Part shown: one piece after another, positions 13,701 through 61,546 of the stretch
Numbering within the stretch: the stretch's first letter is position 1
Layout of the letters: each line of letters starts with the position of its first letter
NCBI GenBank assembly: GCA_025642075.2
Contig: JAODUO010001328.1
Location: 1 to 64,000 of the forward strand
Direction of reading: 5' to 3'
DNA: 64,000 nucleotides
DNA from: Ridgeia piscesae
Lineage: Eukaryota > Annelida > Polychaeta > Sabellida > Siboglinidae
Notes under the pieces: generated by a model
Database searches by the model: none
The model's input: only the letters and a program-made list of their open reading frames with translations
Told to the model about the DNA's origin: nothing
Program-made: the position numbers and the translations under genes

Positions 13701-16700
13701 TCCCACCTCCCTCTCCTTCCTCTCCCGGTCGGCCTCCTGTCGTTCCTTCTCCCTTCGCTGTTTGTCTGCCGCCACTCGCTGCGTCTCCTCCGCCTGCAAA
13801 CAGACGTCTCTCATTCTAGATATTTTTATCAATTTAATTTATTAACTTACTTTTATCATTTTCAATGATGTTTTTATTAATGTCATTTATTGTAATACTT
13901 TTCATGTTATATTTATTTTTTAATTATATGATGTATCTGTTGGAACACAGGCACCTCAAACACACATTAACCGTCTAGATCCAATGTAATCTATGAAACG
14001 CCAGCAGTATACACACAAAATCACAGAGATACGGATTAACAGTCTGCTGCATTTAACTGTTTTTATGTACTTTGTTTTCTAACATGTTGTGCAGATCCTG
14101 TACAAAAAGTGGTAAATAAACTAATCGACTTCTAAGTGAAACATTCTGCTGTGTCTGGGTGAGTTTCTACAGATGTGCAACACACATTGTTATTTGCAAC
14201 GACTTGTTTAAACTCTCTTCCAAACTGTGAATATTCTGTTCATAGGCATCAATGACACAACTCGATGATTTAAGACCTCGTGAGTGACGTGACTCAATGC
14301 CTCATTACAACACATGTCCTCACTGGAATGACTTCATTCAATACCTCATTACAACACATGTCCTCACTGGAATGACTTCACTCAATACCTCATTACAACA
14401 CATGTCCTCACTGGAATGACTTCACTCAATACCTCATTACAACACATGTCCTCACTGGAATGACTTCACTCAATACCTCATTACAACACATGTCCTCACT
14501 GGAATGACTTCACTCAATACCTCATTACAACACATGTCCTCACTGGAATGACTTCACTCAATACCTCATTACAACACATGTCCTCACTGGAATGACTTCA
14601 CTCAATACCTCATTACAACACATGTCCTCACTGGAATGACTTCACTCAATACCTCATTACAACACATGTCCTCACTGGAATGACTTCACTCAATACCTCA
14701 TTACAACACATGTCCTCACTGGAATGACTTCACTCAATACCTCATTACAACACATGTCCTCACTGGAATGACTTCACTCAATACCTCATTACAACACATG
14801 TCCTCACTGGAATGACTTCACTCAATACCTCATTACAACACATGTCCTCACTGGAATGACTTCACTCAATACCTCATTACAACACATGTCCTCACTGGAA
14901 TGACTTCACTCAATACCTCATTACAACACATGTCCTCACTGGAATGACTTCACTCAATACCTCATTACAACACATGTCCTCACTGGAATGACTTCACTCA
15001 ATACCTCATTACAACACATGTCCTCACTGGAATGACTTCATTCAATACCTCATTACAACACATGTCCTCACTGGAATGACTTCACTCAATACCTCATTAT
15101 AACACATGTCCTCACTGGAATGACTTCACTCAATACCTCATTACAACACATGTCCTCACTGGAATGACTTCACTCAATACCTCATTACAACACGTCCTCA
15201 CTGGAATGACTTCACTCAATACCTCATTACAACACATGTCCTCACTGGAATGACTTCACTCAATACCTCATTACAACACATGTCCTCACTGGAATGACTT
15301 CACTCAATACCTCATTACAACACATGTCCTCACTGGAATGACTTCACTCAATACCTCATTACAACACATGTCCTCACTGGAATGACTTCACTCAATACCT
15401 CATTACAACACATGTCCTCACTGGAATGACTTCACTCAATACCTCATTACAACACATGTCCTCACTGGAATGACTTCACTCAATACCTCATTACAACACA
15501 TGTCCTCACTGTAATGACTTCACTCAATACCTCATTACAACACATGTCCTCATTGGAATGACTTCACTCAATACCTCATTACAACACATGTCCTCATTGG
15601 AATGACTTCACTCAATACCTCATTACAACACATGTCCTCACTGGAATGACTTCACTCAATACCTCATTACAACACATGTCCTCACTGGAATGACTTCACT
15701 CAATACCTCATTACAACACGTCCTCACTGTAATGACTTCACTCAATACCTCATTACAACACGTCCTCACTGGAATGACTTCACTCAATACCTCATTACAA
15801 CACGTCCTCATTGGAATGACTTGACACTGATAAGACTCACAGCCTTACCCAAGTGACTGTAGACCCACTAATCACTCACCTTAGTTTTACTCCAGAAGTC
15901 ATCGCGTCTCTTACCAATGTTCTGTACGACTGTACGCTCGTAGACGGAGCCCTGAGACATACGCAGAATACAGCAAAACTAACAGGCAGGAAATGTCAGC
16001 AAAATATTCTTATAATAATAATGTCTTATAAAGCACTGTATTCAATCCTTTGTTCTGTTCACAGCGCTGAAGGAAAAGTTTGTAACTGTCACTTACATAT
16101 TAAAAGCTATTTTAAAAAGATGTGACTTAAGCACCAAAGTAGTGCCACACTGGCCGACTGACTGCAGCAAACTGTTCCACATTAGAGGGGCCATTTTGAC
16201 GAAAGCCTGATCTCTGAACAACTTGAAGCGTGTGGGTGGCACTTTTAGGAGATGAACTGAATTTGAATGGAGGGAGTGAGTGCAAGAATATTCAACAGGA
16301 AGCTTGGATATGTACTGCAGTGCAAGTGTACGGAGTCCCTGGAATGTAATAAATTCTTGTTGTGCTTCTCAAAAGACACACAGGCCAGTAACCAAACTAA
16401 CCATAACAGCTACAGTCTAGGTTCCATTGAATTAGTCTAAGCTACAGCCTAGGTTCCATTGAATTAGTCTAAGCTACAACCTAGGTTCCATTGAATTAGT
16501 CTAAGCTACAGCCTAGGTTCCATTGAATTAGTCTAAGCTACAGCCTAGGTTCCATTGAATTAGTCTAAGCTACAGCCTAGGTTCCATTGAATTAGTCTAA
16601 GCTACAGCCTAGGTTCCACTGAATTAGTCTAAGTTACAGCCTAGGTTCCACTGAATTAGTCTAAGCTACAGCCTAGGTTCCATTGAATTAGTCTAAGCTA

Positions 16701-17380
16701 CAGCCTAGGTTCCATTGAATTAGTCTAAGCTACAGCCTAGGTTCCATTGAATTAGTCTAAGCTATAGCCTAGGTTCCATTGAATTAGTCTAAGCTATAGC
16801 CTAGGTTCCATTTAATTAGTCTAAGCTATAGCCTAGGTTCCATTGAATTAGTCTAAGCTATAGCCTAGGTTCCATTGAATTAGTCTAAGCTACAGCCTAG
16901 GTTCCATTGAATTAGTCTAAGCTATAGCCTAGGTTCCATTGAATTAGTCTAAGCTATAGCCTAGGTTCCATTGAATTAGTCTAAGCTATAGCCTAGGTTC
17001 CATTGAATTAGTCTGAGAAATCAACACAACAGCAGCAGATTCCTGTTACACTACTGGATAAGTAAGACGTCCTGGCTGACACACACCACAGGCTTGATGG
17101 GCGGCTGTGGCTTTGGCTTCTCTTTGTGAATGCTGTAGTTGGAGCCGGACGCCTTCGACACTTGGTCCTTGATTGCATCCTCATCAACGTCATCTTCCGA
17201 CCTCGCGTTGATAGTCACATGGGCGCCCTGAGGTGTGATTACAGTGACGTTGTGATAATAAACGTACACTCATGATTCCTAATTGTCTGAATATACACAG
17301 AACAAAAATAAGATTAATGACTCGACGTAGGCAAACACACACACACACACACACACGCACGCATGCACACACACACACCA

Positions 17381-38000: not shown

Positions 38001-41000
38001 AATGTGTTGTGTTGAGACACATGTGTGAATATGTTGTGTTGAGACACATGTGTGAATGTTGTGTTGAGACACATGTGTGAATGTGTTGTGTTGAGACACA
38101 TGTGTGAATGTGTTGTGTTGAGACACATGTAGTGAATGTGTTGTGTTGTGTTGAGACACATGTGTGAATGTGTTGTGTTGTGTTGAGACACATGTGTGAA
38201 TGTATTGTGTTGAGACACATGTGTGAATATGTTGTATTGAGACACATGTGTGAATATGTTGTGTTGAGACACATGTGTGAATGTATTGTGTTGAGACACA
38301 TGTGTGAATGTATTGTGTTGAGACACATGTGTGAATGTATTATGTTGAGACACATGTGTGAATATGTTGTGTTGAGACACATGAGTGAATGTATTGTGTT
38401 GAGACACATGTGTGAATATGTTGTGTTGAGACACATGTGTGAATGTATTGTGTTGAGACACATGTGTGAATGTTGTGTTGAGACACATGTGTGAATACAT
38501 TGTGTTGAGACACATGTGTGAACATGTTGTGTTGAGACACATGTGTGAACACGTTGTGTTGAGACACATGTGTGAATACGTTGTGTTGAGACATGTGTGA
38601 ACACGTTGTGTTGAGACACATGTGAACACATTGTGTTGAGACAAGTTTGTGAACACGTTGTGTTGAGACAAGTTTGTGTATATGTTGTGCTGAGTCAAGT
38701 GTGTGAACACATTGTGTTGAGACACACGTGTGTGAACATGTTGTATTGAGACAAATGTGTGAACACGTTATGTTGAGACATGTTTGTGAACATGTTGTGT
38801 TGAGACACATGTGTGAACACATATTCAGACACGTGTGAACACGTTGTTTTCAGTGTTCAGATAAGTGTGTGAACAAATTTGTGGACAGCCAAACATTTGA
38901 TTCTGCATAAAAGCCTGTTCAAAGTAAATCTATAATAAGATGAAATATGATTGTGACAACCAGTAATCTTGTTGATAGATGTGTGGTTCCAAGTGGACGA
39001 TGGTCTGGTGGCTGGACACAAGGCCTTACTGACCGCTCGCTCCGAGGTCATGGCCCATATGTTTGGCTGCGGTCACTTCCGGGAATGTTCTGCGAAACTG
39101 GCAAGTACCGAAACTTAAAACTTCTGAAACTTGGATCGATGCTTTTTAGGGGATGTTTTCTGTCCTGTTTTGTGTTATTAACAAGATGTTTGTCTAATCA
39201 GATGTATGAATATCATAATCACATCACCGAAAAGTAAACTACTAACCTGGCAGCTGTTGGAACATACAATGTGAGTTAGTGTGTCTCCTTCACTTTTGTT
39301 CAACATCTTAACTACACTTACTTTAGAAACACAATAACTTTATTGAGTGATTGTCTGAAACTTGTCTGTTCTTTGTACTGTATTATCAATGATCATTGCA
39401 AACTCTGCTGAACACTGTTTACCTTTTAGTATCTAAATCAATTTATTGTTACTATTTCTACTCATTTGTCTCGCTCAGACCCGCTTCTGAAATCATTGCA
39501 TTGGCTCCATGTGCATTATCGCATTATCTTCATGATGTGTACAATAACACATCAAACCCTCTCATCAACACAACCAGCATTCAATGCTCATTCCAGCAAG
39601 AAATTCTAGACAGCTACTTTTCTCGGGGTGAAAACGTAAGCTGGAACTCGAGATTTCTCAGTTGCCGCACCAACTCTGTGGAATTCGCTTCCAGCCAGTG
39701 TTAAACAGAAGGAAATGTAGTTTCATTCTGCAGGCATTTAAAAACCTACCTCTTCAAAGCTGCCTATACTCCTTCGATTCCTTCGACGACTTGCGCATTG
39801 TTATACGACTACGAGATTGCTTAATGCCTTGGTTTTGTTGCGCCATTTAGCTCGACCTACGAGGATATTGACAACCAAGAAGTCATCTTTATTATTATTT
39901 CAGATTCAGTTTCCGGGTGTCACGCGGGACACGTTTCTCGCCCTGCTGTATTATCTGTACACAGGACAGCGCCCTCTACTGGTTAATGTTGACTGTGTCG
40001 AACTCATCGAGCTCGCCAATCGTCTCTGTCTGCCGCGACTACTGGCGCTCACCGAGCGACACCTAGGTGGATGCTTTAACGGCTGCGGAGAAAGACGGGA
40101 ATGACATTATTGAAGATGTCATCTTCACACTGACATCCGTTCAGGTGAACCGACATGAAATAATTATAGCAACTTAATTTCCAATATAGCTTATTAAATT
40201 TGTTACATCCTTATGAAAGTTTTGAGATAAAAAATTGTATACCAAGGACCAGTCCAAATGTTGGCATATTATAAAAATATGTGAAAGTGTTGGTTAAATA
40301 ATCAAATAGAGTGCGGTAAAAACAAATGAAAAAGAAAGAGTGGGAGGAGAATGGAGAACAACTTCAAACGATAGAGTTGGAGAATGTTTAGTCCAGGACC
40401 TGCCCTATAGGCCCGTAGACATTTCGTACTTGATAAAGTTTGACTGTTGATTTGAGTAATATATACATATGGCTTTAACATTCTATAGGTGGAAATTTCA
40501 AAAACTGTTCTATGTTCTAGGGGACAAGGATTTCCAATATTGTATTTTTGGACTCCTCTGATATACACTTCTGCCATTTTTAAAGATGGCGGTCATCAAG
40601 ACAAATGTCACCATATCTCAAAAACGATGTCACATAGAGCAATTCTGTTAACGTTGCTGGATAACTTGGTGGATAGCGATGTCAACGGTTCTATTATTGA
40701 CCTTCATCAACCTCTAAATTATCGCCATTTATTAAAAAGTTGAGAGAGAACATAGTGATAGAAGTGAGGAAGAAAATGACGATGGTAATAATGGCCAACC
40801 TCACTCCTGAATACAAGTATGCCATGAGGAGAATAACACGGTGTTAGATGAATACTGTAAGTACAAATAATTATAAATACCCGCACATAAAATATATGCA
40901 AATGAAACAGCGTCCAAATTCACAGTGATTTTTACCTATGACCTTGCAGCTCCACAATGCTGACCAACTGGTCAGCTGGTGCTTGTGGTTTCTATCGGTC

Positions 41001-41989
41001 AACTACCACACCGTCTACACTGACCACTGGAAGTTGCTGCGGACACTGAGTCCAGTGCACCAAGCGTACTTGAACAAGCACAGATGGCCACCAGTCTGGT
41101 GAGTGTTACGAAATAGCACAAGAGCGATGGATATGTATGTCTAGGTGTTATGAACTTTACAAAAGGTTTCCTATACAAATGTTTTGTAACAAAACCAAGG
41201 AATGGATTTTGCTATTTGTGTCAGAAATGGAGATTGATAATGGTGAATCTTCTACAGGTTAATGTAGTCTCATTCATTCCGTGGATAAAGGCAGGATTTC
41301 TGTCTCGGTCTTCACAAGGATCTTGTAGTTCCCTGGGACTTTACATGTGTAGTGTAAGCTCGGGACCTTGCCCTCAATTTGTGTATCTTCTTATCTGTTA
41401 GGTAAAACCTGCATCTTTCCCTGAATTCTGAAGCCTGGTTTCTCCATGGGCATAGTATTAATTAGTAGTCTTCACAATGTGTAATGTATAGCCTTGATCT
41501 TCTCCGGGGTAGTGTAAATCCTAGATATTGTGTAGTGCAAAGTGTGGATCTTCCCATGAATGGTGTAATATTAAGTTCCTACCATGGGCATGTACAGCAT
41601 GGATTTGTACATGGATAGTCTAAGTCTCTTCTGCAAGGTGGGGAGTACGGATGGTGTGGTGGTTAGCACATCTGTCTATAAACCTGGCTCTCAACATTGG
41701 GGACTGTATATCCCTCATGAATCGGACAATCAATATGGGATTTAAAAGACCTACTGAGGATGACAAGCAGCCTGGCACTGACTGTCTTCAGTGCCAGCAT
41801 AGAAAGGTTGGCTTGGCATAAATGTTCTGAACTTCTGAAACAGTCAGACTAGTTTAATGAAACCTCATAAGACCACAACGTTATAACCAGACTAATAGTA
41901 TCCTGCTGAATGCTGGAATGAACTGGAATGAATGTTTTTTCTATGTCTACATGGATGTTGTCATTGTAGGCACTTGAAGGCAGTTGACC

Positions 41990-42030
<41 letters not shown>

Positions 42031-43365
42031 GGAGGGGGAGAGAGGGAGAGAGGGAGAGAGGGAGAGAGGGAGAGAGGGAGAGAGGGAGAGAGGGAGAGAG
42101 GGAGAGAGGGAGAGAGGGAGAGAGAGAGGTGTTGTTATTGTAGGTACTTGAAGGCGGTCGACCTGTACGAGAGAGGTGTTGTCATTGTAGGTACTTGAAG
42201 GCGGTCGACCTGTACGAGAGAGGTGTTGTCATTGTAGGTACTTGAAGGCGGTCGACCTGTACGAGAGGTGTTGTCATTGTAGGTACTTGAAGGCGGTCGA
42301 CCTGTACGAGAGAGGTGTTGTCATTGTAGGTACTTGAAGGCGGTCGACCTGTACGAGAGAGGTGTTGTCATTGTAGGTACTTGAAGGCGGTCGACCTGTA
42401 CGAGAGAGGTGTTGTCATTGTAGGTACTTGAAGGCGGTCGACCTGTACGAGAGAGGTGTTGTCATTGTAGGTACTTGAAGGCGGTCGACCTGTACGAGAG
42501 AGGTGTTGTCATTGTAGGTACTTGAAGGCGGTCGACCTGTACGAGAGAGGTGTTGTCATTGTAGGTACTTGAAGGCGGTCGACCTGTACGAGAGAGGTGT
42601 TGTCATTGTAGGTACTTGAAGGCGGTCGACCTGTACGAGAGAGGTGTTGTCATTGTAGGTACTTGAAGGCGGTCAGACTCTGTACGAGAGAGGTGTTGTC
42701 ATTGTAGGTACTTGAAGGCGGTCGACCTGTACGAGAGAGGTGTTGTCATTGTAGGTACTTGAAGGCGGTCGACCTGTACGAGAGAGGTGTTGTCACTGTA
42801 GGTACTTGAAGGCGGTCGACCTGTACGAGAGAGGTGTTGTCATTGTAGGTACTTGAAGGCGGTCGACCTGTACGAGAGAGGTGTTGTCATTGTAGGTACT
42901 TGAAGGCGGTCGACCTGTACGAGAGAGGTGTTGTCATTGTAGGTACTTGAAGGCGGTCGACCTGTACGAGAGAGGTGTTGTCATTGTAGGTACTTGAAGG
43001 CGGTCGACCTGTACAAGAGAGGTGTTGTCATTGTAGGTACTTGAAGGCGGTCGACCTGTACGAGAGAGGTGTTGTCATTGTAGGTACTTGAAGGCGGTCG
43101 ACCTGTACGAGAGAGGTGTTGTCATTGTAGGTACTTGAAGGCGGTCGACCTGTACGAGAGGTGTTGTCATTGTAGGTACTTGAAGGCGGTCGACCTGTAC
43201 GAGAGAGCAGTCCTGGACGAACAGAGAGAAGAGAAGGGTCATAGGTCATGCATCAGCGGCAGTGATGATGACGAAGACAATGGAGGAGGTTGTCTTGGCT
43301 TCTGTAGTCGACGCAATCGCAGACTCAAGTGTGTCCCACACTCGCTACCCGAGGTCTACGTCTGA
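32067..43365 (+). CDS. RHOBTB: RhoBTB atypical Rho GTPase with two BTB domains, complete, 8 coding exons
   Basis: RhoBTB proteins are Cullin-3 substrate adaptors (family knowledge). Coding exons: 32098-32352, 33462-33565, 34573-34764, 35120-36063, 38979-39100, 39904-40144, 40950-41098, 43176-43365. They give 731 aa if one extra base in exon 6 is discounted; human RHOBTB1/2 have 696/727. Seen: P-loop GDTGVGKT (42-49), [16 protein letters not shown] [24 protein letters not shown] in place of NKxD, and YETSV. Then a proline stretch QAPFQPPRP, a first BTB split by a long insert (YCDVVFV...[10 protein letters not shown]), a second BTB ([18 protein letters not shown]...[16 protein letters not shown]) and the C-terminal LHNADQL, HRWPPVWYLK. 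No CAAX box. Exon 6 carries an apparent frameshift and exon 5 a GC donor. Confidence 0.93.
32098..32352 (+). CDS. RHOBTB: RhoBTB exon 1 (start, P-loop, switch I)
   Basis: The exon begins at 32067 after aatttacag. ATG 32098 opens [12 protein letters not shown]; Met3 and Met18 are other possible starts. Includes [17 protein letters not shown] and [11 protein letters not shown]. Ends CAACAG|GTAGTT in phase 0. Confidence 0.9.
32383..32515. repeat. about 12-bp degenerate tandem repeat after RhoBTB exon 1
   Basis: Repeated ggtcaatcgatt and ggtcaatcaatc variants beginning about 30 bp past the exon 1 donor. Confidence 0.9.
32516..33461 (+). other. RhoBTB intron 1 remainder, nothing recognised
   Basis: No element or exon recognised before the exon 2 acceptor. 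Confidence 0.65.
33462..33565 (+). CDS. RHOBTB: RhoBTB exon 2 (G3 motif)
   Basis: Acceptor tgttgcag; reads VLEKSWGS to [20 protein letters not shown]; donor AG|GTGGGT (phase 2). Confidence 0.92.
33688..33905. repeat. interspersed repeat, copy B
   Basis: Diverged partner of 12090-12365, same orientation; lies in RhoBTB intron 2. Confidence 0.6.
34030..34128 (-). mobile_element. SINE head fragment, minus strand
   Basis: On the minus strand reads gtggcccagtggctagagcg, then ccttgggcaagttatttcac and ctccagttcactcaac, matching the head and body of the SINE at 18957. Confidence 0.7.
34573..34764 (+). CDS. RHOBTB: RhoBTB exon 3 (G4 region)
   Basis: Acceptor cccaccag; [36 protein letters not shown]; ends TTCAG|GTTTGA (phase 2). 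Confidence 0.92.
34765..35119 (+). other. RhoBTB intron 3, nothing recognised
   Basis: AT-rich; no repeat or element seen. Confidence 0.7.
35120..36063 (+). CDS. RHOBTB: RhoBTB exon 4 (G5, proline region, first BTB)
   Basis: 944 nt, acceptor gtttacag. Carries [14 protein letters not shown] (G5), the proline-rich [12 protein letters not shown], and the first BTB with its long non-conserved insert. Ends GCAG|GTGAGC. The GTGAGC at the end is intron; the extra open codons to 36143 are read-through. Confidence 0.92.
36064..37309 (+). other. RhoBTB intron 4, left part
   Basis: Contains a stretch rich in atttgtattt/atttaaatac variants at about 36190-36410, similar in style to 3240-3310 and perhaps part of an AT-rich mobile element. 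Otherwise nothing recognised. Confidence 0.5.
37310..38870. repeat. 27-bp minisatellite, about 57 copies, RhoBTB intron 4
   Basis: Units contain ttgtgttgagacacatgtgt and gaatgtg. Open frames in several registers on both strands are artefacts. The right edge lies about 110 bp before the exon 5 acceptor. Confidence 0.96.
38979..39100 (+). CDS. RHOBTB: RhoBTB exon 5 (second BTB, GC donor)
   Basis: Acceptor gttgatag; reads [20 protein letters not shown] to ECSAKL. It ends CTG|GCAAGT, a GC-AG donor. Phase matches both neighbours (2 + 40 codons). Confidence 0.88.
39470..39815 (+). pseudogene. 3' end of a LINE reverse transcriptase, degraded
   Basis: Across shifting frames it reads [32 protein letters not shown] and [15 protein letters not shown] segments, the C-terminal pattern of CR1/L2-type LINE proteins (LHWLPV..RI, FS..AP.LWNSLP..., FK..LKT.LF). 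Several frameshifts; 5'-truncated. Fills RhoBTB intron 5. Confidence 0.65.
39904..40144 (+). CDS. RHOBTB: RhoBTB exon 6 (second BTB, apparent frameshift)
   Basis: Acceptor ttatttcag; [40 protein letters not shown]. Around 40064-40068 (cacctaggtgg) the frame shifts by one base. Beyond it [18 protein letters not shown] fits the conserved continuation and keeps phase with exon 7. Left as is, the frame stops at TGA 40102-40104. Donor CAG|GTGAAC. Confidence 0.85.
40145..40949 (+). other. RhoBTB intron 6, nothing recognised
   Basis: No repeat or exon seen. Confidence 0.65.
40950..41098 (+). CDS. RHOBTB: RhoBTB exon 7
   Basis: Acceptor accttgcag; [20 protein letters not shown] to LNKHRWPPV; ends TCTG|GTGAGT (phase 2). 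Confidence 0.92.
41640..41830 (+). mobile_element. weak candidate SINE
   Basis: gatggtgtggtggttagcac resembles a tRNA A-box region. No clear B box and no second copy in the window. RhoBTB intron 7. Confidence 0.25.
41960..43200 (+). repeat. 47-bp array of RhoBTB exon 8 acceptor plus exon start, more than 20 copies
   Basis: Each unit consists of gtgttgtcattgtag (intron end with AG) followed by gtacttgaaggcggtcgacc and tgtacgagagag (exon 8 start). The first copy (41960-42000) is diverged and separated from the rest by a GA-rich tract. The last copy is the functional exon 8 start at 43176. A few units are 45 bp or have single changes. Confidence 0.95.
41995..42130. repeat. (GA)n / (GGGAGA)n purine tract
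   Basis: GA dinucleotides then agagggag units, splitting copy 1 from the rest of the acceptor array. Looks like an expansion of the gagagag end of one unit. Confidence 0.93.
43176..43365 (+). CDS. RHOBTB: RhoBTB exon 8 (C-terminus, stop)
   Basis: Last in a long series of identical acceptors (ttgtcattgtag|G). Only this copy continues into [20 protein letters not shown], an SDDDEDN acidic patch and [10 protein letters not shown] before TGA 43363-43365. Fits the RhoBTB C-terminal region. Confidence 0.88.
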
Positions 43366-44822
43366 CTCCATAGAATACCGTGTTACCATGGTGACAGACG
43401 TGATGACTGAACAGGCTTTAATAAGTATTTGTTGAGAAAAATATGATATTATCTGCAGTGGTTCAAACAGTAAGGTACATTTTACAGAGGACGCCAAATT
43501 CCATTCATCGTAAAACTAACGATTTTTTTCCATTTTCAAGACAGAAAGTTGTTACCATGAAAACTGTTTTTGATGTGTGTTTTGGTTCAACTGATGTACG
43601 GCTGGACATAATTGCTGATGTCACCTATTTCAGTACTCAATAATTTTGATATACAAATTTACCAGTCATTTCGACCACTTATAAATTTTCAACAAATTAA
43701 CATACACTATGTGAATGACACAGATATTGTAAAACTTAAACAGTTCTCTTTCAGCTGTTGCTTGCGTCTCCATGCTGCAAAATGTACTTTGATCCACCAT
43801 TGTGATCCACCACAAAACTGTTTCTTAAACTTCACAAGAATGCTGTCATACCGGTGATGAAATAGGTCTAGCGTCTTCCAGTAAACATTACTCTGAACAA
43901 AATGTGTATTGGTCAGTTTGAACACTGGGAAAGATTTGTGCATGCGATCTTACTATTTGCACTGCTTCAAGAACCCAGTTTGTATCCGGTGGTCTTCTGT
44001 TGAATTCACTCATTGAATCACAGCAAGAAGTTACGTGCAGTTTTTGCTACGGAGTCACACTGGGCACATAAGGACACCTACAGACCTAAAGTGAATTATG
44101 TGTCATTGTAATTTATTACGCTAGCTTTGAAACAAGTCTGTCCATGTGGCATTACAACGTGAACATTAGTGTGTTCATTCTGATCAATGCAACAAATGTA
44201 CTCTAGTTAAACAATGTTTGAATGTGATCATTGTGAGTTGGGCCAGATATAATAGATATTAGCCTTCTACATGCTTATTTCTTTATTCCGTTCTCATCAC
44301 ATTAATAATTTAACCCACGGCTGATCCCATTATTTATCCCCCATCAATCACAATGTTAATCCACCTTTTTCAATCAGCCTTTCACGGTTTGTTCCGCACT
44401 TTCTGGGTACGTCTTTTTCCACACATCTACCGATTGTAGTATAACCAGTGTCAGCTTATAATTCTACCATCCGTCATCCGAGATCCTTTGTAACAACCAA
44501 GGTTTCGAAAAGTTTATGTTATGTTCAAACTAAAAATATCAGCTGAATTTTGTTTATATCAAAACAAAAGCTGGTAGCCATAAGAACTCACATTGTGAGA
44601 AAACCTGCTTAAATCAGGCCACATTGAAATCCCTGTTCAGTGGACTATTGTAAATTATAGCTTTATTTTGCTGCCAGGGACAAGATACAAGGAAGTTACT
44701 TTAAAGTGAGTTTGTCTGCTTCTCTCCTTGGTATTGGCCTAACTGTAGTCACTTGTTACAGGAAGTCTGCTGTCTTGAAACAGGAATACTGAACATCAAT
44801 GTTGCAATTAACTTGGCTCAAC

Positions 44823-47713: not shown

Positions 47714-50700
47714 ATTTTACTACATTGATACATAATATAATTTACATTAATATCATGTTTAATTAACTTTTAGTCCCTCAAGTTCAACTAATTACAGTGT
47801 ACAGGGACCTATTCATTCTTCATACTGTATCCGAATACATGCAGTCATCACAGGGACCTATTCCTTCTAGACTAGATACACTGTATCCGAATACATGCAG
47901 TCATTACAGGGACCTATTCCTTCTAGACTAGACACACTGTATCCGAATACATGCAGTCATTACAGGGACCTATTCCTTCTAGACTAGATACACTGTATCC
48001 GAATACATGCAGTCATCACAGGGACCTATTCCTTCTAGACTAGACACACTGTATCCGAATACATGCAGTCATTACAGGGACCTATTCATTCTTCATACTG
48101 TATCCGAATACATGCAGTCATCACAGGGACCTATTCCTTCTAGACTAGATACACTGTATCCGAATACATGCAGTCATCACAGGGACCTATTCCTTCTAGA
48201 CTAGATACACTGTATCCGAATACATGCAGTCATTACAGGGACCTATTCCTTCTAGACTAGATACACTGTATCCGAATACATGCAGTCATCACAGGGACCT
48301 ATTCCTTCTAGACTAGATACACTGTATCCGAATACATGCAGTCATCACAGGGACCTATTCCTTCTAGACTAGATACACTGTATCCGAATACATGCAGTCA
48401 TTACAGGGACCTGTTCCTTCTAGACAAGACACTGTATCCGAATACATGCAGTCATTACGGGGACCTGTTCCTTCTAGACTAGACACACTGCACCCAAATA
48501 CATGCAGTCATTATGGGGACCTATTCCTTCTAGACTAGACACACTGTATCCGAATACATGCAGTCATTACGGGGACCTATTCCTTCTAGACTAGACACAC
48601 TGTATCCGAATACATGTAGTCATTACAGGGACCTATTCCTTCTAGACTAGACACACTGTATCTGAAATACATGCAGTCATTACGGGGACCTATTCCTTCT
48701 AGACTAGACACACTGTATCCGAATACATGCAGTCATTTCGGGGACCTATTCCTTCTAGACAAGACACACTGTATCCGAATACATGCAGTCATTACAGGGA
48801 CCTATTCCTTCTAGACAAGACACTGTATCCGAATACATGCAGTCATTACAGGGACTTGTTCCTTCTAGACTAGATACACTGTATTGGAATACATGCAGTC
48901 ATCACAGGGACCTGTTTCTTCTAGACAAGACACTGTATCCGAATACATGCAGTCATTACAGGGACTTGTTCCTTCTAGACTAGATACACTGTATCGGAAT
49001 ACATGCAGTCATCACAGGGACCTATTCCTTCTAGACTAGATACACTGTATCGGAATACATGCAGTCATTACAGGGACCTGTTCCTTCTAGACAAGACACT
49101 GTATCCGAATACATGCAGTCATTACAGGGACTAGTGCTGGTTCGATATTCGATATATTGAAGTATCGCGATACTTGCGAAAGTTCGATATCGATATTTAG
49201 TGGTATCGCGATACTTCGATACTTTTGGTATCGAACGCCCACTGTTCGATACCTTCGATACCTTCGACACCTTCGATACCTTCGATACCTTCGATACCTT
49301 CGATACCTTCGATACCTTCGATATTTCGATACTTGACATCGAGTCCATTCGACGATGTCGATGCGAAGACGCAACATCATTGTTGATGACGACGTTGTTT
49401 ACGGGAGCTATCACTACAGCGCTTCGCAGCCTAAATTGACTAAGGCGTGGTTGTTTAAAAATAATATAACATAAAATGTGAATTGTTTTCTAAAACTTTA
49501 TTGTAGAGTTAGTTTGTATAATAACTGTTTTCTGTGAGCGATCTTAGCCTAGGTCAGACTTCGCTTAGCCTCGTTATCCAAACCAAGGATCGTACGTGAC
49601 GCTCTCGCTTGGTGGCACTACCATGTCATCTTTCTCCCTACTTTACTTACGGTTACGCGTACAAAAACACACATCCAATAGCATTTTTATAGAGTGTTTA
49701 TTGCACGCACTAGTATTTATGAAACTAGTTTAATAATAATATTGTTAATATAAATAATTATTCGAGCGTGATGCGGAGGCTTTCTTTATCCGGGTTCCGT
49801 TTGGTGGCGTTGTTTTGCAGCGTACGGCATGTCGACGTCGTCGACGTTGACGTTGTGGACAACGTCGCATTGCCGTTGACTCGAGAACGTGTTCTTTCGA
49901 AATATTCGACAATGAGCAAGCAGTGGACATCAAGTTACAGTCGAAGCGAATCGCCATCGATTGCCGAATCTACTAAGTAACCGGCCACAGTGTCAAGAAG
50001 TGACATATACGACGTGACTGATTAACGATGACGATTCGCTTACTGCATCTATTGCCACTGTGACACTGGCACTGGCCAAACAGGTTCACCACTGGCAGGG
50101 CCAGAGGTAGAGGAAGAAACTGACCTGTTCTTGAAAACAGTTGCAAAAACATAATGGGGCTTGTTATGTGTACTTGATAACGTGGTAATTTAAGTTTTAT
50201 ATTTAAAAAAAATATTGGTGTGAACTGGGAAGTAAAATTGTAATTTAAATTAATATTTTTTCAATTATTAATTAGTGTTATTTTATTGTAATCATCTATA
50301 CAGTTTTGATGCTAAATCACAATTATCTTTATGATAGAATTAATAATAAAAAAGTTATAACAGTGAGGGTTCAGCTGTGCTGGCAGTGACACTATTATAA
50401 GTGATAGGTGTTTTTATATAATAATAACATATTATTTGTATGTTTCATTTTTTTCAGCTGTATTTGTTGATGGTCATTTTAGGAGACACATTGACTTGAA
50501 ATTAAGCTGCTATATTAAAGTGTATTTACAAACAGCTGGGGTGAAGTACTGTTATTAATTTAAAATAATTCAGTGCAATTAATTAATTAATTTGTCACTA
50601 GGTATTTTATTGCAGTTGTCTTTATTGTTTTAATATTATATTACAATTACCTTTTAGTTTTACAACAGTAATCAATTATATTGAAACTGTTGTTTGTGTA

Positions 50701-53700
50701 CTTACATAAATAGAAAATTGCATATTAATCATTGTTTGCATGACTATAAAATTGTCACATATTTCCCTACAAGTTAAACATTTTGTGTTTCTGTGGCATT
50801 AGTGTAAGTGGATAGTAGTGTTTCTTTGGAGATCTCTACTACTTATAAGGTAAATTTTGAGTATCGACTAAAAATCTAGTATCGATTGATATCGAAGAAT
50901 TCTGATATCGAATCAGTAATATATCGATCGGTATCGAAGAATTCTGGTATCAAACCAGTAATATATCGATTGATATCGAACCAGCACTACTTCTGTTGCA
51001 TACTGTGCTTCTACTGGGAACTGTGTTCTATGTGAAAATTATACTTAATTACAACGTAAGTATCGAGTATCGAGTATCGAACAAAATTCAGGTATCGATA
51101 GGTATCGAACAAAACCTGGTATCGAACCAGCACTAACAGGGACCTGTTCCTTCTAGACAAGACACTGTATCCGAATACATGCAGTCATTACAGGGACCTG
51201 TTCCTTCTAGACTAGACACACTGTATCCGAATACATGTACTCATTACGGGGACCTATTCCTTCTAGACAAGACACACTGTATCCGAATACATGCAGTCAT
51301 TACGGGGACCTATTCCTTCTAGACAAGACACTGTATCCGAATACATGCAGTCATTACAGGGACCTGTTCCTTCTAGACTAGATACACTGTATCCGAATAC
51401 ATGCAGTCATTACAGGGACCTGTTCCTTCTAGACAAGACACTGTATCCGAATACATGCAGTCATTACAGGGACCTGTTCCTTCTAGACAAGACACTGTAT
51501 CCGAATACATGCAGTCATTACAGGGACCTGTTCCTTCTAGACTAGATACACTGTATCGGAATACATGCAGTCATCACAGGGACCTGTTCCTTCTAGACTA
51601 GATACACTGTATCGGAATACATGCAGTCATCACAGGGACCTATTCCTTCTAGACTAGATACACTGTATCGGAATACATGCAGTCATCACAGGGACCTGTT
51701 CCTTCTAGACTAGATACACTGTATCGGAATACATGCAGTCATCACAGGGACCTATTCCTTCTAGACTAGATACACTGTATCGGAATACATGCAGTCATTA
51801 CAGGGACCTGTTCCTTCTAGACAAGACACTGTATCCGAATACATGCAGTCATTACAGGGACCTGTTCCTTCTAGACTAGACACACTGTATCCGAATACAT
51901 GCAGTCATTTCGGGGACCTATTCCTTCTAGACAAGACACACTGTATCCGAATACATGCAGTCATTACGGGGACCTATTCCTTCTAGACAAGACACTGTAT
52001 CCGAATACATGCAGTCATTACAGGGACTTGTTCCTTCTAGACTAGATACACTGTATTGGAATACATGCAGTCATCACAGGGACCTGTTTCTTCTAGACAA
52101 GACACTGTATCCGACTACATGCAGTCATTACAGGGACTTGTTCCTTCTAGACTAGATACACTGTATCGGAATACATGCAGTCATCACAGGGACCTATTCC
52201 TTCTAGACTAGATACACTGTATCGGAATACATGCAGTCATTACAGGGACCTGTTCCTTCTAGACTAGATACACTGTATCGAATACATGCAGTCATTACAG
52301 GGACCTGTTCCTTCTAGACAAGACACTGTATCCGAATACATGCAGTCATTACAGGGACCTGTTCCTTCTAGACTAGACACACTGTATCTGAATACATGCA
52401 GTCATTACGGGGACCTATTCCTTCTAGACAAGACACACTGTATCCGAATACATGCAGTCATTACGGGGACCTATTCCTTCTAGACAAGACACTGTATCCG
52501 AATACATGCAGTCATTACGGGACTTGTTCCTTCTAGACTAGATACACTGTATCGGAATACATGCAGTCATCACAGGGACCTATTCCTTCTAGACAGTACA
52601 CTGTATCGGAATACATGCAGTCATTACAGGGACTGTTCCTTCTAGACTAGACACTGTATCCGAATACATGCAGTCATACAGGGACCTGTTCCTTCTAGAC
52701 TAGACACACTGTATCCGAATACATGCAGTCATTACAGGGACCTATTCCTTCTAGACAAGACACTGTATCCGAATACATGCAGTCATTACAGGGACCTGTT
52801 CCTTCTAGACTAGACACACTGTATCCGAATACATGCAGTCATTACAGGGACCTGTTCCTTCTAGACTAGACACACTGTATCCGAATACATGCAGTCATTA
52901 CGGGGACCTATTCCTTCTAGACAAGACACACAGTATCCGAATACATGCAGTCATTACGGGGACCTATTCCTTCTAGACAAGACACTGTATCTGAATACAT
53001 GCAGTCATTACAGGGACTTGTTCCTTCTAGACTAGATACACTGTATCGGAATACATGCAGTCATCACAGGGACCTGTTCCTTCTAGACAAGACACTGTAT
53101 CCGAATACATGCAGTCAACACAGGGACCTATTCCTTCTAGACAAGACACTGTATCCGAATACATGCAGTCATTACAGGGACCTGTTCCTTCTAGACTAGA
53201 TACACTGTATCGGAATACATGCAGTCATTACGGGGACCTATTCCTTCTAGACTAGATACACTGTATCGGAATACATGCAGTCATTACGGGGACCTATTCC
53301 TTCTAGACAAGACACTGTATCAGAATACATGCAGTCTTTACCGGGACCTATTCCTTCTAGACAAGACACTGTATCCGAATACATGCAGTCATTACAGGGA
53401 CCTGTTCCTTCTAGACTAGATACACTGTATCGGAATACATGCAGTCATCACAGGGACCTATTCCTTCTAGACAAGACACTGTATCCGAATACATGCAGTC
53501 ATTACAGGGACCTGTTCCTTCTAGACAGACACTGTATCGGAATACATGCAGTCATTAGGGGACCTTTCCTTCTAGACTAGATACACTGATCTGGCTGCAG
53601 TTTTCAGGGACTGATCCTTCAGAAATGTTTCAAATAATGGGTATAAAGACTCTTTAGGACAGATTGAGGAAAAGGAGTCTTACGGGGTTGGTCCTTCTGA

Positions 53701-56700
53701 ATGGGTTTTGAACCAATAATGCAGGGCAACGAGGGACCTAGGGTTCCTTCTAGACAAGAGACTGTATCCGAATACATGCAGTCATTACAGGGACCTGTTC
53801 CTTCTAGACAGAGTACACTTTTATCTGAATACATGCAGTCATTACGGGGACCTGGTTCCTTCTAGACAAGACAACAGTATCGTGAATACATGCAGTCATC
53901 ACAGGGACTTGTTCCTTCTAGACAAGATACACTGTATCGAATACATGCAGTCATCTACAGGGACCTTTCCTTCTAGACAAGACACTGTATCCGAATACAT
54001 GCAGTCATCACAGGGACCTATTCCTTCTAGACAAGACACTGTATCCGAATACATGCAGTCATTACAGGGACCTGTTCCTTCTAGACTAGATACACTGTAT
54101 CGGAATACATGCAGTCATTACGGGGACCTATTCCTTCTAGACTAGATACACTGTATCGGAATACATGCAGTCATTACGGGGACCTATTCCTTCTAGACAA
54201 GACACTGTATCCGAATACATGCAGTCATTACAGGGACCTATTCCTTCTAGACAAGACACTGTATCCGAATACATGCAGTCATTACAGGGACCTGTTCCTT
54301 CTAGACTAGATACACTGTATCGGAATACATGCAGTCATCACAGGGACCTATTCCTTCTAGACAAGACACTGTATCCGAATACATGCAGTCATTACAGGGA
54401 CCTGTTCCTTCTAGACTAGATACACTGTATCGGAATACATGCAGTCATTATGGGGACCTATTCCTTCTAGACTAGATACACTGCATCTTGGGCTGCAAGT
54501 TTTCAGGCATTGAGCTGAAACTCCTTCAGATAATGTCTTCAAATGTAATGGGTTGAGTCAAATGACTCTTTAAGGGTCACAGATTGAGAGAAAGAGAGAG
54601 ATTCTTACGTGGGTTGGTCTCTCTCTTCGAATGGGTTTTGAACCATACATTAAGTGACTTTTTAAGGGTCACAGACTGAGAGAGATCCTTATGTGGGTGG
54701 GTCTCTCTCTTCAAATGGGTTGTGAACCATGAGTTCATTGTCTTTTTAAGGGTCATAGAGTAAGAGAGATCCTTACATGAGTGTGGGTCTCTCTCATTGA
54801 ATGGTTTGTGAACCATGAGTTAGTGACTTTTTAAGGGTCATAGAATAAGAGAGATCCTTACGTGGGTGGGTTTCTATCATCAAATGGGTTGTATTCCAAG
54901 AGTGCAAGGGCAGTTTCATCGTTGACGAGGAGCTTCGCCATGAGATGCACCATCCAATTATGTTCCTGGTAAGTCTGAAAGAAAACATACACGTGTTGCA
55001 ATCATAAACTGTCCACCGTCTCATGACTCCAGGGTAACTTTTACGCCAGGTCTAAAAGCAGTATCCGAAAATTTCACAACTATTCCGTTGGTGTTAAATG
55101 ACATCTGTTTCATGCATATTGTTGTATAATTTATTGTTACCAACTCTGGGTAAACTTTAACAAGGGCACTTAACAACACAACATGTATAGACGGATTTTG
55201 GGATTCCACCAATGGGATGTGCGAGTTTCATGTTGGTAAATAATGCTATCGATTCATTTGATGTCATAATACACTGTATGTAAGGATATTTTTGGTTTCA
55301 AAAAACCTATCTTCAACATACATAATGACTTGATAAAGCTTATGTATAATTACATTGACATAGTAAATGACCCAGTGTACAGCTCTAATAGCCATAGTGA
55401 GTTTCACTTTCAGAGCACTTACCCCAAATGCAGCGAACCACATGAGCCAGTCAAGGCGGTAGTGATATGGGGTGATGATGCATGGCCGCCGTGTCACATT
55501 GCCTGGATAGAAACACAATCCTGTATCAGATAGAATGATAAAGGCCAGTTTTTTTACAGCACAGCATCTAGTCCTCAGGACTGCCCAAGTCGAGTTATGC
55601 TTTAATCTCTGGCAGACCTGTTTAATGAAACATTATCTTGACTTCTCCGCGAACCATTCAGCCATGCTACAATTAAGCTGTGAACACTATTCATACACAA
55701 ACATCCACCACTGTTTATAGCCATGTACTCATTCATACAGCTGAGTGAACTGGCGCAACGTAGAGTAATAGAAGTTGGCCAGGGATGACGAGAGCATTAC
55801 AGGATTTGAACACAAGTTTTCTTGAGGATTGGATAGGATGTGTAAGGTAAACTACCATAAGTAGTCACAAACAGCTTTGGTGAATAAGGATTGTGGCCAG
55901 TTTGATGTAAGAGTTAAAAGGAAGGATTTACCTGGCTTGCATTTGAATTCATACTCATACCATTCAGTGAGAGGGTTCAGTGGATGCTTCGTGTAAGTTC
56001 CCTGGAAGATCAGTTCTGTTCTTTCTTTCGTCACACTGAATAAATGAATGTATTTAAGGTAGTTTATAGGAATGTCTTATTGGTATATTTATTTATTTAT
56101 TACAGTTCTTCCGACCTCTTTTCTTGGTTCAGTAACTACAGCATATTGATGGTGATGTTATGATTTTTACATGTTTGTTTTGTTAGAATTTTGTTTTATA
56201 CAAAATACTGTAACATGAAGGTAGGTAGGTGGGTGGGTGGGTGGGTGGGTGGGTGGTGTGTGTGTGTGTATATGTATATATATATATGTATATATATATG
56301 TGTATATATGTGAGTGTATGTATGTACAGTGTATGTATTTTGTATGTAAAGCACCCAAAACAATTTCAACTAATTAAGTGCTAAATAAATAAATATATTA
56401 AGTACTTTTATTATTTATTACAGCTGAGCAACTGTTTAAGTGCCATTTAAGTCTTGAAGAGATTCTTGTTAAGTTGCTATGCATTAATTGGTGTGTAACT
56501 CAACATGATAATTTTGCATAAGTACTTTCTTTGCTACTCAGTACTTTTGTTTTGCAAATCAATGTTCAACTTGGGTGTTATCTGTGCAAAAAGCTATTCT
56601 TATGTGAATCACTTTGAATTTGCTGCCACGTGGATGATTAATTACACAGCCCGATACAGCGATTTTCATTCACTCAGACTGAACCACGCAATGCCCTGAC

Positions 56701-57921: not shown

Positions 57922-60900
57922 ACACGAGTGTGTGCATGTGTGTGTATGTTTAACTGAGCCAGTGTGTTTGTGTGTGTGCGTGTGCGTGTGCGTATGCGTA
58001 TGCGTGAGCGAACATGTGTAACTAAGCCAGTGTGTGTGTGTTCGTGGGTATGTATGTATGTGTGCATGTGCCTTCATGTGTGGCTGTGCACATCTCAATG
58101 ACTATATAGTAATACACCTGTACAGGTCTTTGACTGCAGCAGTATTTCGTAGTCACATTCCAGTTCATTTCTAGGTGTGAGTCAGTTTAATCTGATGCTC
58201 TTTTATAACAGCATTTACATAACTGCCATCAAGAGAACTTATCCTACATAGCAAGCTTACCAGGCTACATATGGTTTATAAAAATTCCAATTTTTATTTT
58301 ATATGCGAGGCATTTGTCGATATTGTTTTTTTTTTATTCACGCAGCAAGCATTTAAACTGTATACAATTAGGAACTATTCCTGTGAGAATGGATACTTTC
58401 TGTTTATAATTGACACTGTTCCATCACTAATATTTACACATGCCCTGTAGTTCTTTCTTTAATAATTGAGAAACTAGTCCATTTACCAATATTTCTGTAG
58501 TCATGAAAAATGTAAAACACAACTACCTTATCACATATACATCAGACGTACTGTACTGCATGACAAGTAAATAATACACCACACTTACTCCACGAAGGAC
58601 GTGGCTGTACGTCTGACTTCGACTCCTGTTGTAGTTTGTATACGTCCAACTTGGTGGTTCGGGTGAAGAGCCAAGCGAGACTCGCATCGTCGAAGCACGC
58701 AATACATGGTAGTATGGTGAGCCAGTTGAGGAAGGACAGGTTCCCACTGATTATGATCAACGTCTGCGGCAAAACACAACCAGTGGACGGAAATAAATGA
58801 GAAAGTCACAGATTGAAGTTATGAAAAAGGTCAAAGTATAGGTTTACGCAACTTTAGACTAAGTATAAAATTCCTGCACATTTTTATTGATAGTTAAAAC
58901 TATCTTAAGTGTGTTGGTTACAACAAAACATCCAAAGAAATTCTGCCATATTCTTTTCACTGATAACTGAATGCAATGTTTATTGGACGATTATGAGAAA
59001 TCTTGTGAAGAACCTCTGACATACACACGCAGACCTGGATAATTCCTGACATTTCTTCACAAGGTAGATGTTAAATCATTATTTATCCAAATTATACATT
59101 GAAGGTTTCTGTATTGTTGGTAACTTTGAGGAGTAAGACAAATATTCATTCAAACGTATTTAATAATAAACATATTGAAATACAAAGAATAGATTCCCAT
59201 TATTATGAGCCATTATGTAGGGTTCATGAACTGATGTATGTGACGTTTTCTTGTAATTTAATTCCTAGACTTTTGATGCAACTTCATATCCTACATTCAC
59301 ATAACAAGTTGCTACTCAGAGACCTTGCTCACGTTCAATGATATTCATGAAAACAATAATGACAACAATCTCACCTGGAACGCGATCTGTACGATGCCAT
59401 GTTACCTGGAATGCGATCTGTGTGATGCCGCATTACAAGACAACAATTTCATCTGGAATGCGATCTGTGTGATGCCGCATTACAAGAAAACAATTTCACC
59501 TGGAATGCGATCTGTACGATGCTGCGTTACAAGACAACAATCTCACCTAGAACATGATCTGTACAATGCCGCGTTACAAAACAATAATCTCACCTGGAAT
59601 GTGATCGGTACGATGCCGCGTTACAAGACAACAATCTCACCTAGAATGCGATCTCTAAGATGCCGTTTTACAAGATAACAATCTCACTGGAATGCAATCT
59701 GTACGATGCCGCGTTACAAGACAACAATCTCACCTAGAATGCGATCTGTATGATGCCGCATTACAAGACAACAATCTCACCTGGAATGTGATCTGTATGA
59801 TGCCACGTTACAAGACAACAATCTCACCTGGAATGCGATCTGTATGATGCCACATTACAAGACAACAATCTCACCTGGAATGCGATCTGTACGATGCCGC
59901 ATTACAAGACAACAATCTCACCTGGAATGCGATCTGTACGATGCCGCATTACAAGACAACAATCTCACCTGGAATGCGATCTGTATGATGCCACATTACA
60001 AGACAACAATCTCACCTGGAATGCGATCTGTACGATGCCGCATTACAAGACAACAATCTCACCTGGAATGCGATCTGTATGATGCCACATTACAAGACAA
60101 CAATCTCACCTGGAATGCGATCTGTATGATGCCGCATTACAAGACAACAATCTCACCTGGAATGCGATCTGTATGATGCCGCATTACAAGACAACAATCT
60201 CACCTGGAATGTGATCTGTATGATGCCACATTACAAGACAACAATCTCACCTGGAATGCGATCTGTATGATGCCACGTTACAAGACAACAATCTCACCTG
60301 GAATGTGATCTGTATGATGCCACATTACAAGACAACAATCTCACCTGGAATGTGATCTGTATGATGCCACATAACAAGACAACAATCTCACCTGGAATGC
60401 GATCTGTACGATGCCGCATTACAAGACAACAATCTCACCTGGAATGTTATCTGTACGATGCCACATTACAAGACAACAATCTCACCTGGAATGTGATCTG
60501 TACGATGCCACATAACAAGACAACAATCTCACCTGGAATGCGATCTGTATGATGCCGCATTACAAGACAACAATCTCACCTGGAATGCGATCTGTACGAT
60601 GCCGCATTACAAGACAACAATCTCACCTGGAATGCGATCTGTATGATGCCACATTACAAGACAACAATCTCACCTGGAATGTGATCTGTACGATGCCACG
60701 TTACAAGACAACAATCTCACCTGGAATGTGATCTGTATGATGCCACATTACAAGACAACAATCTCACCTGGAATGCGATCTGTACGATGCCGCATTACAA
60801 GACAACAATCTCACCTGGAATGCGATCTGTACGATGCCACATAACAAGACAACAATTTCACCTGGAATGCGATCTGTATGATGCCACATTACAAGACAAC

Positions 60901-61546
60901 AATCTCACCTGGAATGTGATCTGTACGATGCCACGTTACAAAACAACAATCTCACCTGGAATGTGATCTGTATGATGCCACATTACAAGACAACAATCTC
61001 ACCTGGAATCCGATCTGTACGATGCCGCATTACAAGACAACAATCTCACCTGGAATGCGATCTGTACGATGCCACATAACAAGACAACAATTTCACCTGG
61101 AATGCGATCTGTATGATGCCACATTACAAGACAACAATCTCACCTGGAATGTGATCTGTACGATGCCACGTTACAAAACAATCTCACCTGGAATGTGATC
61201 TGTGTGATGCCGCATTATAAAACAACAATCTCACCTGGAATGCAATCTGTATGATGCCACATTACAAGGCAACAATCTCACCTGGAATGTGATCTGTGTG
61301 ATGCCGCATTATAAAACAACAATCTCACCTGGAATGCGATCTGTCTGATGCCACGTTACAAAACAACAATCTCACCTGGAATGCGATCTGTATGATGCCG
61401 CCGGCCTGGCGAAGGCCCCGGTGAGGCATAAGTAGGAGGAAGGGAGCGGGGAGCTCAACAAAGTGGTTCACAAGGACCTCCCACTTGTGGAACCACATGG
61501 GAGACTGGTGCATGTAGTAGGCAAGGGGGTTAGGAATGGGCTGCGT
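47211..61546 (-). CDS. LMF1: lipase maturation factor 1-like, C-terminal 351 aa (7 exons, 5' part outside)
   Basis: LMF1 is a multipass ER membrane protein needed for folding and dimer assembly of lipoprotein, hepatic and endothelial lipases (family knowledge). Exons in transcript order: 61546-61376, 58763-58589, 57781-57628, 56035-55932, 55502-55423, 54974-54862, 47469-47211. They total 1056 nt with matching phases. Seen: [20 protein letters not shown], hydrophobic helices around [12 protein letters not shown] and [120 protein letters not shown]. The lysine-rich tail [14 protein letters not shown] extends past the vertebrate end. The N-terminal third is not in the last 2.4 kb and must lie beyond 64000. 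Resembles LMF1 more than LMF2 at FLPPLSL. Confidence 0.92.
47680..47708. repeat. (TA)n microsatellite
   Basis: Short TA run in the last LMF1-like intron. Confidence 0.93.
47795..49131. repeat. about 55-57-bp satellite, left block, about 24 copies
   Basis: Units contain gacctattccttctagacta, gatacactgtatccgaatac and atgcagtcattacaggg. Common variants: tagactagatacactg versus the shorter tagacaagacactg. Same family as 51136-54490, interrupted by the hAT-like element. Confidence 0.96.
49132..51135. mobile_element. hAT-like DNA transposon, non-autonomous, 2.0 kb
   Basis: Begins tagtgctggttcgata and ends tatcgaaccagcacta (inverted). It is flanked by an exact 8-bp duplication acagggac (49124-49131 and 51136-51143), the hAT hallmark. 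The insertion site is a satellite unit, so the empty site is visible in neighbours. Subterminal regions are dense in tatcgat-type motifs, including ttcgatacc repeats at 49250-49330. No transposase ORF. Confidence 0.85.
51136..54490. repeat. 55-57-bp satellite, right block, about 60 copies
   Basis: Continuation of the left block after the transposon. 52500-52700 and 53520-53970 contain many one-base deletions and insertions. A non-satellite stretch at 53590-53745 interrupts it. Confidence 0.95.
53581..53750. repeat. degraded second copy of 54481-54660
   Basis: ggctgcagttttcaggg, actctttaggacagattgag, tcttacggggttggtcctt and aatgggttttgaacca follow the same order as in 54481-54660 but with many small indels. 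Confidence 0.8.
54545..54862 (-). repeat. about 80-bp array of an LMF1-like exon end plus 5' splice site, 3-4 copies
   Basis: Sense-strand units read aacccatttgaagagagaga, cccacccac, then gtaaggatctctctta and tgacccttaaaaagtca. The first part equals the end of exon 54862-54974 and the second part its intron. Copy donors read GTAAGG, ATAAGG (lost) and GTAAGA. Confidence 0.85.
54862..54974 (-). CDS. LMF1: LMF1-like exon
   Basis: Acceptor ctttcag; [16 protein letters not shown] to [11 protein letters not shown]; donor CCAC|GTAAGG (phase 2). Its 3' end is duplicated in the array at 54545-54862. Confidence 0.9.
55423..55502 (-). CDS. LMF1: LMF1-like exon
   Basis: Acceptor tatccag; [20 protein letters not shown] to FAAFG; donor GGG|GTAAGT (phase 0). 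Confidence 0.93.
55738..55840 (-). mobile_element. SINE fragment, minus strand
   Basis: Contains, on the minus strand, ccagttcactcagctgtat and a B-box-like gtgttcaaatcctgtaatg. ttgaggattggata at the right recalls the SINE tail but in the opposite order, so the copy looks rearranged. Confidence 0.5.
55932..56035 (-). CDS. LMF1: LMF1-like exon
   Basis: Acceptor tttattcag; [16 protein letters not shown] to YEYEFKCKP; ends CCAG|GTAAAT (phase 1). Confidence 0.92.
56220..56315. repeat. (GGGT)n / (GT)n / (TA)n compound microsatellite
   Basis: ggtgggtgggt units followed by gt and tatatg runs in an LMF1-like intron. Confidence 0.93.
57039..57480 (-). pseudogene. 3' end of a LINE reverse transcriptase, degraded
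   Basis: Reads [56 protein letters not shown], then after a one-base shift near 57178 [16 protein letters not shown] and [11 protein letters not shown] before a stop. This is the C-terminal signature of a jockey/CR1/I-type LINE ([23 protein letters not shown]). 5'-truncated; lies in an LMF1-like intron. Confidence 0.82.
57628..57781 (-). CDS. LMF1: LMF1-like exon
   Basis: Acceptor gtatttgaag (weak pyrimidine tract); [41 protein letters not shown]; ends GCAG|GTAAAC (phase 2). Confidence 0.9.
57855..58045. repeat. (TG)n microsatellite with diverged flanks
   Basis: About 66 bp pure TG, then two shorter TG blocks each preceded by (t)aactgagccagtgtg or its variant. Confidence 0.93.
58589..58763 (-). 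CDS. LMF1: LMF1-like exon
   Basis: Acceptor ttgccgcag; [20 protein letters not shown] and [17 protein letters not shown]; ends TGGA|GTAAGT (phase 1). Confidence 0.92.
59350..61376 (-). repeat. 47-bp array of an LMF1-like 5' splice site, about 43 copies
   Basis: Sense-strand units consist of ggcatcatacagatcgcatt ccag (exon end) joined to gtgagattgttgtcttgtaa tgc (intron start). The real donor is at 61376/61375 and the array follows it immediately, filling about 2 kb of the 2.6-kb intron. Left-hand copies (59350-59700) are more diverged, while central copies are nearly identical with c/t and a/g alternations. Confidence 0.96.
61376..61546 (-). CDS. LMF1: LMF1-like exon (first in window)
   Basis: 57 codons, [20 protein letters not shown] to GGIIQIAFQ; acceptor cctctag, donor CAG|GTGAGA. 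Its last 24 nt and donor are the seed of the array at 59350-61376. Confidence 0.9.

Follow-up and report, generated by a model that had tools for sequence, protein, structure and literature searches.

The LMF1 gene of the annelid Ridgeia piscesae carries, right at a 5' splice site, a tandem array of 44 units of 47 base pairs (bp), in which the end of a coding exon and the beginning of the following intron are repeated together. It lies in the window analysed here, that is, a stretch of 64,000 nucleotides (nt) from assembly GCA_025642075.2 (contig JAODUO010001328.1, positions 1 to 64,000 of the forward strand). The array is a large new case of a kind that is already described, the "mirages" of amphioxus, rather than an undescribed class, and it is quite likely that it is a mirage whose authentic donor is favoured over all copies by exon definition. 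The elements involved are the following (a slash within a sequence marks an exon/intron boundary):

59352..61399, minus strand: 47-bp splice-donor minisatellite of 44 units, unit 1 covering the final 24 nt of exon A (Tandem Repeats Finder and unit parse)
61376..61546, minus strand: LMF1 exon A, 171 nt, ending in ...GGIIQIAFQ, then CAG/GTGAGATT (Pfam PF06762, E 6.3e-18; frame and splice sites)
58589..58763, minus strand: LMF1 exon B, the next exon, joining exon A in phase 0 (Pfam PF06762, E 5.2e-8)

Gene names in this work come from Pfam profile searches (LMF1 directly; RhoBTB by Ras and BTB; DBNL by SH3 and by Cofilin_ADF, the latter just under its curated cut-off), and exons were placed by eye and with human sequences, one of which served as bait for the penultimate exon of RhoBTB. 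The frame of exon A matches the LMF1 profile, and that of exon B matches the part of the profile that comes next. The donor of exon A reads CAG/GTGAGA on the minus strand; the acceptor GTTTTGCCGCAG stands directly before 58763. Because the LMF1 frame of exon A resumes in phase 0 at exon B behind this acceptor, position 61376 is very probably the true end of exon A. The intron downstream of exon A measures 2,612 nt (588 nt without the array), and the nearest upstream LMF1 exon that we located by eye lies at ~68.5 kb of the contig. A search of the protein collection with the open reading frame of exon A gave no protein candidate. In the upstream part of LMF1, beyond the window, there is also a 40-bp array of 56 copies (contig positions 65639-67895), which is not at the ~68.5 kb exon.

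Tandem Repeats Finder reported the array at 59404-61399 with a period of 47, 42.6 copies and 92% matches. Parsing the minus strand between 59340 and 61460 resolved the array into 44 units running from 61399 down to 59352, of which 41 are exactly 47 nt long; the three others measure 44, 46 and 31 nt. Note that the copy number is that given in one assembly. Each unit consists of the last 24 nt of the exon and the first 23 nt of the intron, with the consensus GGCATCATACAGATCGCATTCCAG followed by GTGAGATTGTTGTCTTGTAATGT. Unit 1 is the end of exon A itself (61399-61376) together with the intron start, and its first 24 nt translate in frame to GIIQIAFQ, the end of the exon. The units thus run head-to-tail and adjoin an authentic boundary, which belongs to a real gene, as in a mirage. 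A preliminary description of this DNA, made from the sequence, had proposed an LMF1-like exon ending at 61376 and a unit composed of exon end and intron start, and had recommended a run of Tandem Repeats Finder; the exon, the unit and the period are borne out by these data, and the exon end as probable. Its placement of the array start at 61376 without a gap needs correction, as array and exon overlap by 24 nt. The mean pairwise identity among units is 0.92, and the far end of the array (about units 36-44) is its most degenerate part. In the core, units are most alike at a lag of 5 (among lags 1-15), with five identical pairs; identical units five apart hint at the pattern left by block duplication.

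The donor motif CAGGTGAG (CAG/GTGAG) is unchanged in 35 of the 44 units, and the looser pattern [CT]AGGT[GA]A is present in 42, so that the AG/GT signal is kept in many copies. The energy of pairing with the U1 5' end amounts to -11.1 kcal/mol in the true donor and in 35/44 units overall. Among 270 GTs of a nearby minus-strand background (4,703 nt, with exon C), none is equally strong, and the run of strong donors is therefore not due to chance. An AGGT donor is found in 41 of the 43 later copies (units 37 and 42 lack it), and in-silico translation showed a premature stop whichever of these 41 is joined to exon B, at codon 75 from the start of exon A for the second donor (47 nt added) and at codon 74 for the others. 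The dozens of near-equal donors and the loss of frame at downstream copies, both expected in the preliminary description, are thus supported.

Strong donors that all lead to a premature stop are what would be expected if the donors competed and mRNAs spliced from later copies were lost to nonsense-mediated decay, with the copy number tuning LMF1 output, or if isoforms retaining repeats were made. The pattern of sequence differences does not favour such a role. The 41 full-length units show 103 differences from the consensus. CpG-type transitions account for 62 of these and fall mainly at four sites. The donor motif holds no CpG pair. In the 9-nt donor window, 8 non-CpG differences were found vs 7.85 expected under an even spread, and in the core (34 full-length units among the first 35) 2 vs 3.4 expected. 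As the observed non-CpG differences are close to those expected, the donors show neither a trace of selection nor excess conservation; selection preserving the motif was accordingly rejected as an explanation, the motif being CpG-free and its non-CpG differences fitting an even spread. We regard a regulatory role of the copies as improbable, and return to it below with the published splicing data.

The repeat appears to be confined to its gene. A two-unit query against the assembly (628,048,202 bases in 4,875 contigs; the window belongs to a contig of 115,961 bases) gave at least 27 matches, all 27 of them inside the LMF1 array; match counts in this search are lower bounds, since very common words are skipped. 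Copies elsewhere, as expected for a dispersed repeat or a mobile element inserted at the exon, were not found in this lower-bound search. The preliminary description had named occurrence of the repeat away from LMF1 in related species as evidence against its account; we looked for such copies in the animal's own genome only, and the same search returned none. The opposite-strand open reading frame of the array had 234 candidates, none at E <= 1; searches with a 28-base pattern came back empty for both genome_contigs and viral_contigs (0 matches each), and scanning the window for Rfam families and tRNAs yielded none.

How can a gene tolerate 44 nearly identical donors? According to the mirage reading, DNA straddling the boundary would have been duplicated in tandem and later expanded through slippage or unequal exchange. 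With long introns, splice sites would be paired across the exon, and among near-identical donors the copy closest to the acceptor of exon A, i.e. unit 1, would be chosen, the remaining copies being removed with the intron. Later copies would have no function of their own, and an mRNA occasionally spliced from a later donor would carry a premature stop. This agrees with published work: five exon-definition minigenes, each carrying a pair of identical 5' splice sites, used the upstream site exclusively, and among human events of near-equal strength, exons with long introns favour the upstream donor (PMC9225289). With a 171-nt exon A, a downstream intron of 2,612 nt and the upstream exon at ~68.5 kb, this upstream preference (PMC9225289) suggests that unit 1 should win. 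Furthermore, data on amphioxus Adh3 and globin genes suggest that regular splicing is undisturbed by mirages (PMC3087553). The minigenes and the amphioxus genes both argue against competition among the donors as well.

Several observations point the other way. When human events are not filtered for strength, the downstream 5' splice site is the preferred one (~60%, in all four intron classes), and the upstream preference found for near-equal sites is itself ~60%; for equal acceptors of internal exons under exon definition, the upstream preference is weakened, not turned into a downstream one (PMC9225289). In addition, boundary repeats in human paralogs changed splicing, with alternative transcripts and novel introns (PMC2812944), which favours competing donors and slightly lowers our confidence in the mirage reading. 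Weighing these points, we infer normal splicing of LMF1 with the copies as silent passengers: the array is probably harmless, the exon-adjoining copy alone being most likely used.

The window holds two boundary arrays besides the 47-bp one, a donor array at exon F of LMF1 and an acceptor array in a neighbouring RhoBTB gene:

54862..54974, minus strand: LMF1 exon F (LMF1_C region), ending in CCCAC/GTAAGG, placed by eye
54595..54892, minus strand: 84-bp donor array on exon F, 3.5 copies by Tandem Repeats Finder, repeating the exon end and donor
42122..43207, plus strand: 47-bp acceptor array at the RhoBTB last exon, CATTGTAG/GTACTTGAAGGC..., repeating the acceptor and the start of that exon
43176..43366, plus strand: RhoBTB last exon, coding part, ending in LPEVYV (end approximate)
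40883..41098, plus strand: RhoBTB penultimate exon, ending in CACCAGTCTG/GTGAGT (start approximate)

The LMF1_C profile (PF25179) is matched at E 3.7e-15 by two stretches in the frame that holds exon E. GTAAG is kept in three of four aligned copies, the exon's own counted, and one copy has ATAAG; reading through beyond the exon end meets an immediate stop. The RhoBTB acceptor is present in 23 exact copies from 41970 to 43176 and in one additional copy with a changed base. Only two of the 23 lead to the native stop: the last copy and its predecessor, which would add 45 nt and thereby 15 in-frame residues. The frame is hence preserved in LMF1 solely by the copy adjoining the exon, and in RhoBTB by the exon-adjoining copy or the one next to it. 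By the same rule as in LMF1, the last RhoBTB acceptor would be favoured, less firmly, because acceptors show merely a weakened upstream preference (PMC9225289). The RhoBTB exon had four protein matches (97, 74, 40 and 38% identical). Note that three long three-frame inputs to Pfam gave no family and one more gave Ras, shorter pieces performing better.

These arrays bear on two further explanations. As the units of the 47-bp array end in TTCCAG/GT, a segment retained through a late donor could be removed by later (recursive) splicing, restoring the exact junction of exons A and B. Indeed, judging from the unit sequences, in-register excision between donor 1 and a later TTCCAG regenerates the identical sequence. 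However, a long pyrimidine tract is missing, by eye, from the exonic part of the unit, which also holds another CAG upstream, and the exon F array, ending in CAC/GT, is incapable of such removal, so that we give this idea very little credence. Tandem arrays are also prone to assembly errors, and the copy number or the entire array could be wrong. Against this, the units differ from one another, the far end is degenerate, and arrays of other sequence stand at two more exon boundaries; an artefact is thus very unlikely.

Among the 15 arrays listed in the window (period >=13, simple-repeat-like ones excluded), 3 span an exon boundary vs 0.42-0.61 expected if 36-52 exon boundaries are assumed (our own rough count), with P 0.008-0.02. 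This comparison is post hoc, and removing the finding that prompted it leaves 2 of 14 with P 0.06-0.11. Arrays with a strong donor (<= -10.5 kcal/mol) numbered 2 of 29 in a sample of 19 loci (174,739 bases, partly N) plus the 116-kb contig, the flank of the second one reading N; 20 shuffles averaged 0.45 and never exceeded 2. As shuffles also reach 2, the sample gives no clear indication that donor-bearing arrays are in excess genome-wide. It is a possibility, albeit a doubtful one, that boundary minisatellites arise frequently in this genome, affecting donor as well as acceptor sites in ordinary genes, perhaps also beyond the lancelets, with dozens of competing near-identical sites in a row. 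If true, exon definition could be tested on these arrays with many natural copies, and they would provide raw material for intron gain.

The window contains other arrays as well. In a DBNL-like gene, the 13-mer CTGACTTGTGAGC (minus strand) is repeated in ~309 copies at 6451-10337 (minus strand); this array stops 14 nt before the acceptor of the exon starting at 6437, and its last CTGAC starts at 6463, a possible branch-point location. DBNL-like introns also have a 44-bp array (14285-15822, minus strand), which begins 58 nt past a probable exon end at 15880, and a 32-bp array (16408-17014, minus strand); no exon boundary was found within either. A 15-bp repeat in a DBNL-like coding exon (6169-6286, minus strand) encodes an AAPAT-type amino-acid repeat. 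Furthermore, a 56-bp unit is common to two arrays ~2 kb apart, 47824-49131 and 51136-54487.

With 44 near-identical 5' splice sites in LMF1 and 23 acceptor copies in RhoBTB next to it, this locus offers a natural experiment in which the spliceosome has to choose among equal sites. Two principles make opposed predictions here: exon definition leads to the copy touching the exon, and proximity across the intron to the one at the far end.

Tandem repetition of splice sites has been considered in several systems. In the model of Rogers, introns are gained through tandem duplication of AG/GT sites (via references in PMC3087553 and PMC3488318). As in this model, tandem duplication would supply new splice sites in LMF1; unlike in the model, the copies sit within an existing intron, and a new exon or intron is not apparent. 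Intron gain through tandem duplication is reportedly also the subject of Zhuo et al. 2007, judging by the title. The intronic variable number tandem repeat of ABCA7 resembles the LMF1 array in being an intronic minisatellite, and an effect on splicing is stated in its title; neither the title nor the start of the abstract describes a unit made of an exon-intron junction. Earthworm metallothionein genes possess intronic minisatellites, and a unit at an exon boundary was not found in the passages used (PMC12783039); the portion used of the amphioxus huntingtin paper (PMC2206037) does not use the term mirage.

The preliminary description had known of no described class of minisatellite made from a splice junction, a view that cannot be upheld in light of amphioxus mirages (PMC3087553, PMC3902484) and of the boundary repeats in human paralogs (PMC2812944). 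The latter, found in paralogs from segmental duplications, are variable internal tandem repeats (~30-bp units, ~4 repeats on average, 27 intron modifications reported); like the LMF1 array, they are minisatellites at exon-intron boundaries, but unlike it they are tied to alternative splicing and novel introns (PMC2812944). Mirages were described as exon/intron-boundary minisatellites in the amphioxus Adh3, globin (BflGb6/BflGb9) and TnC genes and proposed as a source of new introns (PMC3087553); another report adds a PGBD5 mirage and cites troponin C (PMC3902484). The mirages of these reports all come from cephalochordates. The arrays of R. piscesae are like them in that the unit spans an exon/intron boundary and repeats its splice site, that both 5' and 3' boundaries are involved, and that several genes of one genome are affected. 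They differ in size, with 44 units in LMF1 and 23 acceptor copies in RhoBTB as compared with 2 to 7 copies in the amphioxus mirages as covered in the parts cited (the Adh3 figure not included), and it is this copy number, together with the close neighbourhood of donor and acceptor arrays on the same contig, that makes them valuable.

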